A DNA stretch of 64,000 bases, taken from Actinomycetota bacterium. GTDB taxonomy: Bacteria > Actinomycetota > Thermoleophilia > Solirubrobacterales > 70-9. A program made the position numbers and the translations under genes. Each line of letters starts with the position of its first letter. Within the stretch, counting starts at the first letter, position 1. The stretch covers positions 124,001-188,000 of the forward strand of contig JAFDWB010000089.1 in assembly GCA_018268675.1 (NCBI GenBank). The letters run 5' to 3'. The notes under the pieces are model-generated. The model was not told where the DNA came from. It searched no databases and was given only the letters and a program-made list of their open reading frames with translations. Positions 15,984 to 48,827 of the stretch are shown here, piece by piece.

Positions 15984-16042
15984 CCGGCCTTCCGGTGTTC
16001 CTTACTTGCCATATGCGCAAGTAAGGAACACCGCAGGGCCGG
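15984..16042. repeat. Long hairpin after the isomerase gene
   Basis: The outer arms CCGGCC/GGCCGG (15984-15989, 16037-16042) are followed by a short unpaired step and a perfect 16-bp stem (15994-16009 with 16017-16032) closed by a seven-base loop. It sits 3' of the isomerase stop and could end that operon's transcript. Its GTTCCTTA core resembles the hairpins at 19313 and 48785. Confidence 0.85.
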
Positions 16043-16047
16043 CGTCC

Positions 16048-17493
16048 CTACGCCGGCTCCACGCAGGCCACGCCCAGCATCTCGGCCACCCGGCGCACGT
16101 CGGCGGCGCGGTGGCCGACGCCGAGCGCGACGTGGTGGGTCGGGCCCTCGGCGCACCAGGCCTCGAAGAACTCGGCGGGCGGGATGCTGAAACGGAGGCG
16201 CGAGTTGGTGTTGCCGATCTTGAAGGTGGCGCCGGGGATCGACTCGCCCTCGGCGACGAGGAGCTTCAGGCGGCCGTCGGCGGTCTGGGTGCAGCCGACG
16301 ATCGTGGTCGGTCCGTAGCGGACCCGGCACTCGACCGAGAGGCCGGAGCCGCTCTTGCCGTGGTAGAGCTTCAGGTTGCGGAGGGTCGGGCGACCCTCGG
16401 CGATCGCCACGTGCGCGGGCCCGTCGTGACCCATGAGGACGAAGTCGTCCTCGAAGTCGAGCGCGTAGAACTCGGTGTAGGAGCCGCCCGCGCCGAGGCG
16501 GTCGAGGATCAGCTGGGCCACGTTCGTCTTCAGGTCCCCCTCCCCCGCCGTCGGGATCCCGCGCGCGGTCAGCAGCGAGTTGCCGACGATCACCCCCGCC
16601 CCGAGCCGCTCCGCCTCGTTGCCGCCGACCCCGCGGTAGTAGTAGGTGAGCGCGTCGAGGTCGAAGTCGGCGGCGAGGCGGTCGAGCCCGACCGCGACCC
16701 GGGCGCTCCAGTCGAGCGCCTCGTCCTCGATCGGCGCCGCGATCGGGTCGGTCGACGGGTCGGCCCAGTCGAAGCTCGCCCGGATCTCCTCCAGCTTCGC
16801 CGCCACCGCGGCGGGCTCGGCCGCCGCCACCCGCGCCCCGAGGTCGTCGATCTCCAGCACCTCGACGTGCGCCCCGAGGTCGGCGTGGAACGCGGTGAAG
16901 TCCGAGTACATGTCGAGCATGCCGGGGTAGACGTGGCCCATGAAGCCGAGCCGCGCGCCCCGCAGCGCCCGCGCCACGCCGGCCGCCCGCACCCAGGAGC
17001 CGATCTTGCCCCAGGCGCGCTCGTCGCCGTCGATCGTGCCGGTCACGGTGTCGAAGGGGATCCGGCAGCGCACGCAGGCGCCGGCGATCTCGGGCACGCA
17101 GCAGGCGGCGCAGTTGGCGAGCCACTCGGCGGTGTCGGTGCGCTCGTAGTCGAGGGTCGGGGTCGGCTGGAGCCCCGCGAGCAGCACCGGCGCGCCGGCC
17201 CGCTGCAGGGTCGGGATCACCTGCGAGGAGGTCGCGTAGGTGACCGCATGGCAGATCACCAGGTCGAGTCCGGCCGCGGCGAAGGCGTCGCCCGCCGCGC
17301 GCGCACCCGGGGCGTCGTCGACGAGGCCCGCGGAGACGACCTCCGCACCGAGCTCCCGCACCCGGTCCTCGACCCGGCGCTGGTATCCCTCGCAGCGCTC
17401 CCGCAGCCCCTCGAACTGCGGCCAGTAGGCGGCGAGGCCGATCCCGAACACGCCCACCTTCGCTCCTGCCCTCTCCCGCGGCGCCGCCGTCAT
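16048..17493 (-). CDS. L-arabinose/L-fucose isomerase-like sugar isomerase
   Basis: This 481-residue cytoplasmic protein resembles the AraA/FucI-like family that converts aldoses to ketoses with a divalent metal. Visible segments are GVFGIGLAAYWPQFEGL at the N-terminus, a middle domain with LGFMGHVYPGMLDMYSDF and GDLKTNVAQLILDRLG, and the C-terminal HHVALGVGHRAADVRRVAEML. The ATG overlaps the stop of the large glycoside-hydrolase gene by four bases. With the cupin isomerase upstream it suggests a second sugar besides L-rhamnose. The exact substrate cannot be assigned. Confidence 0.82.
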   Translation of the reverse strand: MTAAPRERAGAKVGVFGIGLAAYWPQFEGLRERCEGYQRRVEDRVRELGAEVVSAGLVDDAPGARAAGDAFAAAGLDLVICHAVTYATSSQVIPTLQRAGAPVLLAGLQPTPTLDYERTDTAEWLANCAACCVPEIAGACVRCRIPFDTVTGTIDGDERAWGKIGSWVRAAGVARALRGARLGFMGHVYPGMLDMYSDFTAFHADLGAHVEVLEIDDLGARVAAAEPAAVAAKLEEIRASFDWADPSTDPIAAPIEDEALDWSARVAVGLDRLAADFDLDALTYYYRGVGGNEAERLGAGVIVGNSLLTARGIPTAGEGDLKTNVAQLILDRLGAGGSYTEFYALDFEDDFVLMGHDGPAHVAIAEGRPTLRNLKLYHGKSGSGLSVECRVRYGPTTIVGCTQTADGRLKLLVAEGESIPGATFKIGNTNSRLRFSIPPAEFFEAWCAEGPTHHVALGVGHRAADVRRVAEMLGVACVEPA

Positions 17494-20400
17494 GCCTGTT
17501 CCTTTCCGTCGGTGCGGGCCGACCCGAGCGTCACCGGCCCGAAGATCCCCGATCGCGTCTGGCCCTCGAATACATAGTGGGTGGGGCTGATCGCGTCGAG
17601 ATGCGGCCCCAGCGTGTTCATCACGAGGATCTCCATGATCGCCCCCGGCGCGGCCGCGAACTCGAAGCGGTAGGGCGAGCAGACGCGGACGCCGACGCTC
17701 TCGCCGTCGATCAGCAGCTCGGCGGTGCCACGGACGACGCCGAGGTCGAGCCGCAGCGGGCCGGCGGGGACATCCTCGAGCCGCCGCCGGTAGCGCAGCC
17801 CGCCGCTGTAGCTCGCGAGTCCCTGCGCGCGCCAGTCGCCGAGCTCGATCTCCCCCGGCCCGGTGGCGAAGCGGACCGGACCGGCGAGCACGCCGCCGCC
17901 ACGCAGGCCGGGCGCGGGCTCGATCAGGAGCTCGACCGGGCACGGGCCGGGGGCCTTGGCCGGGAGGTCGACGAGCGCGACGTCCCCCGGCGCCCGGGAG
18001 TCGACCGCGACCGGCGCGCCGTCGACAGTCAGTTCGACCAGGCGGCAGTCGGGCGCCGGCGAGACCTCGATCCGCCGCGCGCCGGGCGGGGCGGTGAGGC
18101 GCAGTCGCTGCGGCGGGCTCGTCGCGGCGAGGCGGGCGTCGATTGCGGCGCCCGCGTTCGCCCCGGCGCGGCCGGGCTCGAGCCACACCGCGTCGGGCAG
18201 TGGGTGCGGGCGCTGCCAGAGGTGGGAGGCGGAGGCGTCGCCGGTCTGCAGGTAGAGCCCCATGCTCGCCGGGCGGACCACGATCATGCCCGCCGGCGCC
18301 CGCCTGATCTCGACGTCGGCGGGGAGGCCGTCGCGCTCGCCGCGCCAGTCGCGGCCGCTGTGGACCCGGAGCTCCCCGCCCGCGGTGACCGCGACCAGGT
18401 CGAGCTGCGCCGAGGGGTTGGTGCGACCGAAGTCGTCGACCTCGACCCGCAGCTCGTGGGGCCCGCGGGAGAGGTGCGGGGCGAGGTCGTAGTAGCCGAA
18501 CTCGTCGCGGACCCCTTCGGTCTCGGCCGTGTAGCCGCCGTGCCTGCCGACCGCCCGGCCGTCGACCAGCACCCGACAGGGGCCGCTGGAGGAGACCAGG
18601 GCGCGCGCCTCGCGCGGGTCGGAGTCGAGCTCGACCGTGCGGCTGAAGGCGACCACGGAGCTCGGCCGCGACGGTCCGACGGTGCGGATCCACTCCGGGC
18701 GCAGATACCCCTCGAGGTCGGCGACGAGGGCGAAGTGGGCACGCAGGAAGATCGGCTCCTCCGCGGTCAGGCGGAGGTCGAGGACCGCGGTGCCCGCCGC
18801 CAGCGCGACCGGGGCGTGGGCGAGATAGCCGACTTCCTCGAGCGCCAACGGCTCGCCGTCAAGCCAGGCCGACTTGACGGCGGCCGCGCCGACGACGAGG
18901 TTCGTCGTCGCCGCCGACTGGGCGTGCAGGACCGTGCGGACGTGGACCGCCTGGCCGGGCTCGACCCAGCCGAAGCGCAGGAACTCTTCCGGCACGCGGC
19001 CGCTCGGGCCGAGGGTCTGCCGGTGGATCGGGTCTTTGTGGATGCCGCGCGAGGGCGACCAGACGGCATCCTGCCAGGCGCCCGCCGAAGGCTCCTCCCC
19101 CGGCGCGGGCAGGTCGGCGGGCGTCGCGGGGCCGGCCCAGCGCGCCCGCGCCCCGAAGGTGGCGTGGGCCGTTACCCAGGTCCCGTCCTCGCCCTCGCAC
19201 TCGAGCTCCCACGCCTCGACCGGGAGATCGGCCGGCGGCGCGTCGAGGTCGCCCCACTCGTCCTCGAGCGCGGGCTCGATCTCGACCTCCCAGGGCCCAT
19301 CCACCACCTCCGCCCAGCTGTTCCTTTTGCCGGACTGGTCGGCAAAAGGAACAGCTGGGGGCGGGTGCTCCTCTGCGGGCTCGGCGGGCTCGGCGGCGCC
19401 CCAGACCAGCAGCGCGGCGGGGCCGTCGTCGAAGGGGACGCGGACCTTGACGCCGTCCGCGGTGTCCTCGGCCTCGAGTTGACGGCGGCGGCCGGAGAAG
19501 GGCTCCCAGAGCTGCGGCGCGCCGCTCACCCCGGCGACGACCACCTCGCGCTCGCGCGCCCAGCGGGCCGGGTCGAAGTCGATCATCGGGTCGAGCCAGT
19601 CGAAGACCGGGTCGGGCTCGGCGGGGGTCGTGACCTCGCTGGCGCGCGGGAAGGCGGCGGGGACGAAGAGCACGGTCCGCTCGCCGTCGCGGCGGCAGAG
19701 CGTCGGCACGTCGGCGCGGACCGTGGCCGGCACGTCGGCCAGAAGCGCGGCCACCTCCTCGGCGCTCGCGGCCAGGGCCGCGGCGCCGCCCTCGAAGCGC
19801 GCCCGCAGCTCGGCCACGGCCTCGTCGTCTTCCTCGATCCCCGCCGGCGCCTCCGGCAGCGCCCCGACCGCGATCAGCGTCCCGCCCCGGTCGACGAACT
19901 CGACCAGGCGACGCGCCGCCGCCGCCTCGATCGCGGCGCAGGCGGGGAGGATCACCGCCCGGTAGCTCTCGCCCCGGTGCGCCAGCCGCCCCTCCCCCGC
20001 GACGGCGGCGGCAACGCTCTCTTCGTCGAGCACGTCGAAGTCGCGGCACAGACCGTCGAGCACGCCCGGCGCCGTCGCGTACCAGGCCATCTTGCCGACC
20101 AGCGGATCGTAGGCCGCGCGCGCCGCGTCGCCCGCCGCGGTCACCCCGTCGAGCGTCAGCGCCGACTGGGCGGTCGCGGTCGGGAAGAGCACGGCGACGT
20201 CGCAGGCGTGCGTCCCCCAGCTGAGGACGCTGCAGAGGCGGGCCACGGCGCGCGCGAAGGGCAGGTTGTGGCGCCAGTAGGGCTGGCGCCAGTCGGTCGC
20301 GGGCGGCGCCCACTCCCACCAGCCGCGCCGGGTCGAGTAGTAGGTGGCGTGCGGGTCGTAGAGGTTGGCGCCGGCGCCGATCCAGGGCAGCAGCCAGTCG

Positions 20401-21527
20401 AAGGTCTCCTCCAGCGTCCCGCCCCAGCCGCTCGAGTGGAAGGCCTCGATCCAAACCCGTTCGTGGCCGTGGGCGTGGGCCAGCGAGGAGTGGAGCTTGG
20501 CGGTCCCGTGGTGGTCGGAGCCGGGGACGCTGAAGCTGCGGTGCGTGCCGAGATAGTCGCCGTAGAGCTTGCTCGACACCACCGGGTCGCCGTCGCGCGC
20601 CCCGTATTCCTGGTCGAAGCCGGAGAGCATGCCGTGGCGCTGGTGCCACTCGTGCAGGGGGCGGAAGAAGGCCGCCTCGGCGAGCCTGCCGCGAACGTGG
20701 TGGAAGTCGCGCCGCACCCGCGGGCTGGTCGGCGTGAGGTCCTCCCAGAGCTCGGCCAATCGCGGCGCGAGGTCGTACCCGGCGAGCTCGGCGAACCGCG
20801 CCGCGAAGTCCCGCGACCAGGTCTGCACCGGCGGCAGCTCGTCCTGGAAGGTGCCGACGATCAGCTCCCCGAGGCGCTCGGGCACGCGCTCCTCGTAGGG
20901 CCCGAAGGCGGTGCGGATCAGCTCGGCGCAGGCCGCCGGGGAGAAGAAGTCGAGGCCACGTGGCACGGTGTAGAAGAGCATCAGCCGGCCGCGGCCGGTG
21001 GCGCGGGCGACGCGGCCCTCGACCTCCACCGGGCGCAGCGCCCCGTCCCGTTCCACCAGCGCGGCGGCGAGCGGCGCGCCGGCGGGCGGGCACTCGACCG
21101 CGCCCGCGCCGTCGATCTCCACCACCGCGCGCTCCAGTTCCATCCCGGCCGCCTCCGGAAAGCGCCCGGTCACCTCGCCGAGCAGGTTGGCGCCGCCGTG
21201 GCCGATCTGGTCGTAGAGCCAGATCGAGGCGCCGAGCTCCTCCGCGTCGCGGCAGACCCCTTCGAAGAACCCCCACCACTCCTCGCTGAAGAGCGGCGGG
21301 TCGTCCCGCGACTTGCCGATGTCCGGCACTTCGGGGAGCAGGTTCATGATCAGGAGGTTGCGGGAGCCGCCGGCGACCAGCCGCTCCATCTGCCAGCGCA
21401 GCCGCCTCGCGTCGAGGCGCTCGCCGCTCCACCACCAGACCGGCGTCGGGTAGAAGGTCCGCGCCGGGCGCTCGAAACGGCCCAGCAGATCGGCACCCGG
21501 CGAAGGTGACTGCGTCGAAGAGCTCAC
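17490..21527 (-). CDS. Large GH106-like glycoside hydrolase (possible alpha-L-rhamnosidase)
   Basis: This protein has 1345 residues and no signal peptide. The N-terminal barrel begins with FYPTPVWWWSGERLDARRL, followed by SIWLYDQIGHGGANLLGEV and ELIVGTFQDELPPVQTW. The length and the later beta-rich, jelly-roll-like domains match GH106-like rhamnosidases. The rhamnose operon nearby fits release of L-rhamnose from a glycoside, but the family call rests on pattern memory. The GTG at 21525-21527 follows the cupin stop by four bases. A perfect 20-bp inverted repeat (19313-19359) lies in frame at about residues 723-738, coding AVPFADQSGKRNSW between a Pro/Glu-rich linker and the next domain. Confidence 0.68.
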   Translation of the reverse strand: MSSSTQSPSPGADLLGRFERPARTFYPTPVWWWSGERLDARRLRWQMERLVAGGSRNLLIMNLLPEVPDIGKSRDDPPLFSEEWWGFFEGVCRDAEELGASIWLYDQIGHGGANLLGEVTGRFPEAAGMELERAVVEIDGAGAVECPPAGAPLAAALVERDGALRPVEVEGRVARATGRGRLMLFYTVPRGLDFFSPAACAELIRTAFGPYEERVPERLGELIVGTFQDELPPVQTWSRDFAARFAELAGYDLAPRLAELWEDLTPTSPRVRRDFHHVRGRLAEAAFFRPLHEWHQRHGMLSGFDQEYGARDGDPVVSSKLYGDYLGTHRSFSVPGSDHHGTAKLHSSLAHAHGHERVWIEAFHSSGWGGTLEETFDWLLPWIGAGANLYDPHATYYSTRRGWWEWAPPATDWRQPYWRHNLPFARAVARLCSVLSWGTHACDVAVLFPTATAQSALTLDGVTAAGDAARAAYDPLVGKMAWYATAPGVLDGLCRDFDVLDEESVAAAVAGEGRLAHRGESYRAVILPACAAIEAAAARRLVEFVDRGGTLIAVGALPEAPAGIEEDDEAVAELRARFEGGAAALAASAEEVAALLADVPATVRADVPTLCRRDGERTVLFVPAAFPRASEVTTPAEPDPVFDWLDPMIDFDPARWAREREVVVAGVSGAPQLWEPFSGRRRQLEAEDTADGVKVRVPFDDGPAALLVWGAAEPAEPAEEHPPPAVPFADQSGKRNSWAEVVDGPWEVEIEPALEDEWGDLDAPPADLPVEAWELECEGEDGTWVTAHATFGARARWAGPATPADLPAPGEEPSAGAWQDAVWSPSRGIHKDPIHRQTLGPSGRVPEEFLRFGWVEPGQAVHVRTVLHAQSAATTNLVVGAAAVKSAWLDGEPLALEEVGYLAHAPVALAAGTAVLDLRLTAEEPIFLRAHFALVADLEGYLRPEWIRTVGPSRPSSVVAFSRTVELDSDPREARALVSSSGPCRVLVDGRAVGRHGGYTAETEGVRDEFGYYDLAPHLSRGPHELRVEVDDFGRTNPSAQLDLVAVTAGGELRVHSGRDWRGERDGLPADVEIRRAPAGMIVVRPASMGLYLQTGDASASHLWQRPHPLPDAVWLEPGRAGANAGAAIDARLAATSPPQRLRLTAPPGARRIEVSPAPDCRLVELTVDGAPVAVDSRAPGDVALVDLPAKAPGPCPVELLIEPAPGLRGGGVLAGPVRFATGPGEIELGDWRAQGLASYSGGLRYRRRLEDVPAGPLRLDLGVVRGTAELLIDGESVGVRVCSPYRFEFAAAPGAIMEILVMNTLGPHLDAISPTHYVFEGQTRSGIFGPVTLGSARTDGKEQA
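19313..19359. repeat. Perfect 20-bp inverted repeat inside the glycoside hydrolase gene
   Basis: The arms 19313-19332 and 19340-19359 pair perfectly around a GACTGGT loop. The hairpin at 48785-48827 is nearly the same sequence in the opposite orientation, differing at about two of 43 positions, including a reverse-complement loop. The copy here is read through in frame. Confidence 0.92.
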
Positions 21528-28538: not shown

Positions 28539-28555
28539 CAACGGGACGACCCCCG

Positions 28556-48784: not shown

Positions 48785-48827
48785 CAGCTGTTCCTTATGC
48801 CGACCAGTCCGGCAAAAAGAACAGCTG
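48785..48827. repeat. Hairpin 3 of array 2 (family B, inverted)
   Basis: A nine-bp outer stem CAGCTGTTC/GAACAGCTG, a 4/4 step (CTTA/AAAA), the inner stem TGCCG/CGGCA and the loop ACCAGTC. It is the reverse-complement counterpart of the hairpin inside the glycoside hydrolase gene at 19313-19359. Confidence 0.92.

Follow-up and report, generated by a model that had tools for sequence, protein, structure and literature searches.

The perfect palindrome lying inside a glycosidase gene of the window (the whole 64,000-nucleotide stretch of DNA that was analysed) is a member of a genus-specific, dispersed palindromic family with about 111 copies in the genome concerned (G000). It is likely to be a copy of a non-autonomous, REP/MITE-like palindromic element.

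The hairpin in the glycosidase gene

The palindrome was real and beyond chance. Its two arms (19313−19332 and 19340−19359) were fully complementary over 20 bp around a 7-nt loop and, when extended, remained 89% complementary over 28 bp. The 39-nt core within it had the form GCTGTTCCTT-N19-AAGGAACAGC. The pattern TGTTCCTT-N19-AAGGAACA was found three times in the window (15996, 19319 and 48789) and not at all in 100 dinucleotide shuffles. The intergenic core listed in Table 1 differed from the glycosidase core at two positions and was in the opposite orientation. The first-pass annotation had claimed both a perfect 20-bp inverted repeat in this gene and its near-identity, in opposite orientation, to an intergenic hairpin at 48785−48827, and both claims held. 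The spacer of G006 orthologous to that of the third window copy did not contain the copy. No match to a known RNA family was found over the Rfam gathering score in the window.

Table 1. Positions of the element copies and associated genes in the window
Feature	Position	Strand	Remarks
Perfect 20-bp palindrome with 7-nt loop	19313..19359	.	Hairpin copy within the glycosidase gene
39-bp element core	19317..19355	-	13 codons (AVPFADQSGKRNS), glycosidase residues 725−737
GH106-like glycoside hydrolase gene	17490..21527	-	1345 aa; hairpin in a variable linker; sub-threshold Pfam match
Intergenic core copy	48787..48825	+	Inside a larger mosaic repeat present at many places in the genome
Third window copy	15994..16032	+	Subfamily GGTGTTCCTTACTTGC; 15 bp past the stop of the isomerase gene
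Sugar isomerase gene	16048..17457	-	L-fucose/arabinose isomerase C-terminal domains; end adjoins the third copy

The ORF carrying the hairpin was intact and long, and the segment was translated without a frame break to give the peptide AVPFADQSGKRNS. This peptide came after a Pro/Glu-rich stretch, as had been claimed. The designation of the host protein as GH106-like was only weakly backed, since the match to Pfam PF17132 scored 22 bits, below the cut-off of 29. In the 12 genus genomes and one scan of a genome collection, a single full-length close homologue was identified, in G006 (77% identity; also recorded under JAFDWO010000023, Actinomycetota bacterium SZAS-9). The two genes were colinear on both sides of the hairpin. 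The G006 linker comprised 26 residues compared to 31 in G000, and exhibited neither the hairpin nor a similar peptide. Because this sole close homologue is hypervariable in the linker, insertion of the hairpin at this exact site is inferred only by analogy with the other genes described below. The modelling recommended to see whether the peptide lies on a surface loop gave no usable structure, the AlphaFold model, built from two sequences, having a mean pLDDT of 33.5.

Copy number and distribution of the family

A BLAST search of G000 revealed about 40 places with the element. From these, 44 copies were extracted with an allowed core length of about 20−52 nt, and the core was exactly 39 nt in all 44. 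The 19-base spacing was built into the pattern searches; the fixed length therefore rests on these 44 copies together with the diverged ileS hairpins of G008 and G009. The outer arm TGTTCCTT/AAGGAACA was near-invariant across copies, the stem was 16 bp or more and the loop 3−7 nt.

With at most one mismatch allowed, the pattern search returned 111 copies in G000, 111 in G006 and 93 in G008, between 1 and 25 in each of seven further members of the genus, and none in two members, so that the family was present in 10 of the 12 genus genomes. None of 109 genomes drawn from other genera of the same family and order contained the pattern. A slightly wider pattern gave 113 copies in G000, and the reversed-pattern control gave none. 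The sample of copies from outside G000 was partly selected by likeness to the G000 form.

Location of copies relative to genes

Genes were called with our own simple coding-score caller and not with a published annotator. Across four whole G000 contigs (1.15 Mb), 31 of 35 copies were intergenic, though about 91% of the sequence was coding. The remaining four were nominally in genes, three of them real and one a spurious 24-codon ORF. About 9% of copies were located in genes, in frame, where they added 13 codons in linkers or tails.

Many copies began 0−21 nt past a stop codon. Of the intergenic G006 copies with known flanks, 11/15 were flanked by convergent genes (P 0.002 on the basis of spacer length); the corresponding excess in G000 was weak (P 0.08). 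None of 249 flanks had TTTT within 12 nt, and the copies are therefore not canonical intrinsic terminators. At four loci (L019, L047, L064 and L081) the gene ends reached just into the 39-bp core, so that the stop codon was located at the hairpin or beside it, as has been described for some REPs.

Some copies belonged to larger mosaics with other palindromes, and one orthologous spacer measured only 11 bp in G006, whereas in G000 it extended to 533 bp and contained several palindromes. Several copies were near contig ends. The intergenic region at 48785−49102 of the window contained three palindromes, and near-identical hairpin surroundings were present near the ends of several contigs; this region probably breaks the assembly.

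In-frame copies in other genes

The first-pass annotation had proposed that the hairpin element was inserted in frame in a protein gene. An in-frame element was supported, in that the dispersed family was found in frame in several genes. The alignment of homologues that it recommended gave a clear result in ileS and in a transporter/mannosyltransferase-like gene, where orthologues either lacked the hairpin or had a variant palindrome that encoded a different peptide.

In ileS, G000 and G006 carried the 39-bp hairpin at the same linker with inner stems that differed but were each self-complementary, GGTCGCC/GGCGACC and GGTCCTC/GAGGACC. Diverged hairpins were present at this linker in G008 and G009. 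The other aligned genomes had no such hairpin there, and the linker was shorter in the other members of the genus; G008 exceeded G003 in linker length by exactly 13 residues. In IleRS the catalytic Pfam domain ends at residue 635 and the anticodon-binding domain starts at 699; the site is located between the two and is gapped when aligned to solved IleRS sequences.

In the transporter-like gene, the hairpin was located at the same codon and in the same frame in G000, G006 and G007. The stems exhibited compensatory changes, and the encoded peptides were AVLFAGQVGKRNS, AVPFAGEVGKRNS and AVPSGVHSAKRNS in the three species. The G003 gene was split over two contigs near the hairpin site. Further in-gene copies, in tails or loops, were observed in a cytosine methyltransferase (G007), a peptidoglycan-binding protein and a membrane protein (both G003) and a C26-type amidohydrolase (G006).

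The in-gene copies used all three reading frames, and in ileS and the transporter-like gene the peptide differed while the palindrome was kept. It is therefore very likely that the symmetry of the DNA, and not the encoded peptide, is maintained.

Covariation of the stem

The inner stem varied between copies and between species and remained paired. At inner stem positions 9−14, Watson−Crick pairing was 65−91% compared to 36−72% expected for independent sides. In 71% of cases, versus 20% expected, a core had its nearest relative in the same genome. The copies thus exhibited strong covariation, accompanied by concerted evolution or recent spread. Of the mismatches counted on the transcribed strand, 14 were G-U and 10 were A-C. 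As G-U was not clearly commoner than A-C, nothing favours RNA over DNA as the level at which the symmetry acts. Orthologous positions were often palindromic in both species, sometimes with another family; this is a point against the mobile-element interpretation, as it also fits a locally maintained function.

Other palindrome families in the genus

Long near-perfect palindromes numbered 106 to 127 in 1.15 Mb of G000, the count varying with the loop length permitted, compared to none after shuffling. They included at least seven families with more than one copy. In a second family the loop was constant, CCTCCCCGCTGTTG, and the stems of 22−32 bp varied freely; 21 of its 36 examined copies were in called genes. 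Its copies occurred at shared sites in several species, including in proteins that we take to be a cysteinyl-tRNA synthetase and an Lhr-type helicase (translations read by eye, without a profile search). A site in PrmA was shared by five species (L163:3509-4399; G000 C91:104180-104247), and further loci of this family were L240-L246 and L279-L308.

Within the window, four palindrome families (GTTCGCA, GCTGCAG, GTTGATGGGCC and GGCGCGGCC types) were clustered within 340 bp at 28551−28891. A CGACGCTTGTC-family palindrome was located at 1677−1719, with a relative at G000 C82:109630 in frame in an FAD-linked oxidase/CCG-domain gene. Different families were observed at apparently the same site in sister species (G000 C82:109630 and L300; G000 C87:121445 and G006 C76:44051) and in the same spacer (G000 C87:116618 and G006 C76:48827), as if palindromes had replaced each other or, potentially, as if the site attracts them. 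These observations suggest that the glycosidase hairpin is one instance of a broader trait, and that the genus, rather than this gene only, merits attention.

Proposed mechanism

Under the preferred interpretation, the element would spread as DNA through a hairpin or cruciform recognized by an unidentified enzyme. Most copies would survive only between genes; the few within genes would persist because the 13 codons they add can be read and the protein accommodates additional residues there. Symmetry would be kept at the DNA level, whether through arm-to-arm template switching, exchange between copies or selection for the site that the recognizing enzyme uses, and the encoded peptide would be incidental.

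No mobilizing partner was identified, in a search that covered only Y1_Tnp (RAYT, PF01797). This domain was absent from all 12 genus genomes, with control genomes positive, and a RAYT transposase was rejected as the mobilizer on these grounds. No target-site duplication could be read because the orthologous filled and empty sites were too diverged. Phage carriage was not supported, since in viral contigs the exact pattern matched only one unrelated low-GC phage locus, present four times. It was also rejected that loss of SbcCD is what specifically causes the palindrome richness, as an SbcD match over the cut-off was missing in most of the relatives tested as well; among these, G014 was not palindrome-rich.

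A bolder reading, which is no more than a possibility, is that the genus has an active system for writing and rewriting palindromes, which would favour certain places, among them in-frame sites within essential genes. It rests on the occurrence of different families in the same linker or tail across sister species, each symmetric while the sequence changes. If true, it would imply a hairpin-targeting element or enzyme that has not yet been described.

Alternative explanations

The copies could instead be functional RNA elements at gene 3′ ends, such as bidirectional terminators, mRNA stabilizers or processing sites, with the in-gene copies as tolerated strays. The convergent excess in G006, the many copies shortly past a stop codon and the occupation of the same spacer by different palindrome families in two species all favour this explanation. 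Against it are the complete absence of TTTT in the flanks, the weak convergent excess in G000, the lack of a clear G-U enrichment among mismatches and the harm that terminator copies would be expected to do within ileS. As a full account it is considered unlikely; a role at gene 3′ ends nevertheless remains possible and is compatible with the mobile-element view. It could also be argued that the palindromes arise and stay perfect in place through replication template switching, without transposition. Template switching is able both to form stems and to repair them (PMC8794818, PMC8604942), multi-base compensatory changes were seen at orthologous sites in ileS and the transporter-like gene, and the genus has no SbcD match over the curated cut-off. 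However, template switching alone cannot account for over 100 unrelated loci with the same TGTTCCTT ends and a length of 39 bp, and SbcD over the cut-off was equally lacking in most of the relatives tested, including G014. As the origin of the family it is therefore very improbable; it is more likely to be a mechanism of upkeep, and offers a credible way of keeping the stems symmetric.

The remaining two explanations can be all but excluded. If the peptide were a conserved motif with a function in the protein, and the palindrome only incidental, translation of the segment in an intact long frame would be accounted for; however, three frames were used across genes, the peptide changed while the palindrome was kept, and the G006 glycosidase did not contain the peptide. 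An assembly artefact, with a repeat wrongly joined into a gene, finds some support in the copies near contig ends, which indicate that assemblers do break at copies, and in the G003 transporter-like gene divided between two contigs near the site. Against this, the glycosidase gene was intact and colinear with that of G006 on both sides, and separate assemblies shared the in-frame sites in ileS and the transporter-like gene.

Significance

Protein-coding palindromes are best known from Rickettsia and Wolbachia, where they have been treated as selfish DNA that lengthens proteins, and intragenic REPs extend the phenomenon to other bacteria. As far as the literature searched shows, the case presented here would be the first actinobacterial one. 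Some of the palindrome-bearing genes are essential, both here and in sister species. The genus provides natural comparisons, in that one and the same linker of IleRS or PrmA contains a palindrome in some sister species and is free of one in others. Two questions thereby become testable: by what means such elements move when no transposase is visible, and in what way long palindromes keep their symmetry in spite of having to encode protein.

Comparison with known systems

The parallel with Rickettsia palindromic elements (RPE) drawn in the first-pass annotation held for the way the element works, but not for membership. Like RPE and the Wolbachia palindromes, the elements are dispersed, comprise several families, occur in frame in unrelated and in conserved genes, and have no known dedicated transposase. 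RPE are about 105−150 bp in length, Rickettsial, and nearly half are in genes (PMC2229807, PMC10969869). In contrast, the core described here is fixed at 39 bp (within a 47-bp palindrome in the glycosidase), has a variable inner stem, is found in genes in about 9% of cases and belongs to an actinobacterial genus. The RPE criterion of a palindromic repeat located in frame in unrelated genes as well as between genes was therefore met, and those of a length of about 100−150 bp and a Rickettsiales host were both not met.

A survey of tagged REPs found them in many genes, including those of tRNA synthetases, and near gene 3′ ends, and its CGTC group is also without a dedicated transposase (PMC3733652); Actinobacteria were not mentioned in its main text. 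The present elements resemble REPs in being short palindromes near gene 3′ ends, some of them in genes that include tRNA synthetases. They differ in their stems of 16 bp or more, compared to 8−9 bp in CGTC REPs and 5−13 bp in GTAG REPs; the CGTC combination of an 8−9-bp stem and a 4−5-bp loop was not met. The GTAG tetranucleotide was absent from about 250 element ends, and of 125 copies only 41, most of them from G000, had CGTC no more than 6 nt from the core, so that the CGTC-end criterion was not met either. Membership of the GTAG or CGTC REPs was rejected on the basis of the missing GTAG tag, the inconsistent CGTC tag and the absence of RAYT.

The neisserial dRS3 and intergenic mosaic elements have conserved ends, a variable core and mosaics with other repeats, dRS3 being about 20 bp. 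The present element shares the conserved ends, variable core and mosaics with dRS3, and differs from it in its 39-bp length and its occurrence also in genes. Perfect inverted repeats within working protein genes are also found in the mitochondria of Nematomorpha (PMC6649704); there, both arms encode conserved regions of the protein, whereas the palindrome described here is extra, dispersed and located in linkers and tails. Although it was placed in neither the RPE nor the REP groups because the length, tag and transposase tests failed, the element acts like RPE and intragenic REPs.
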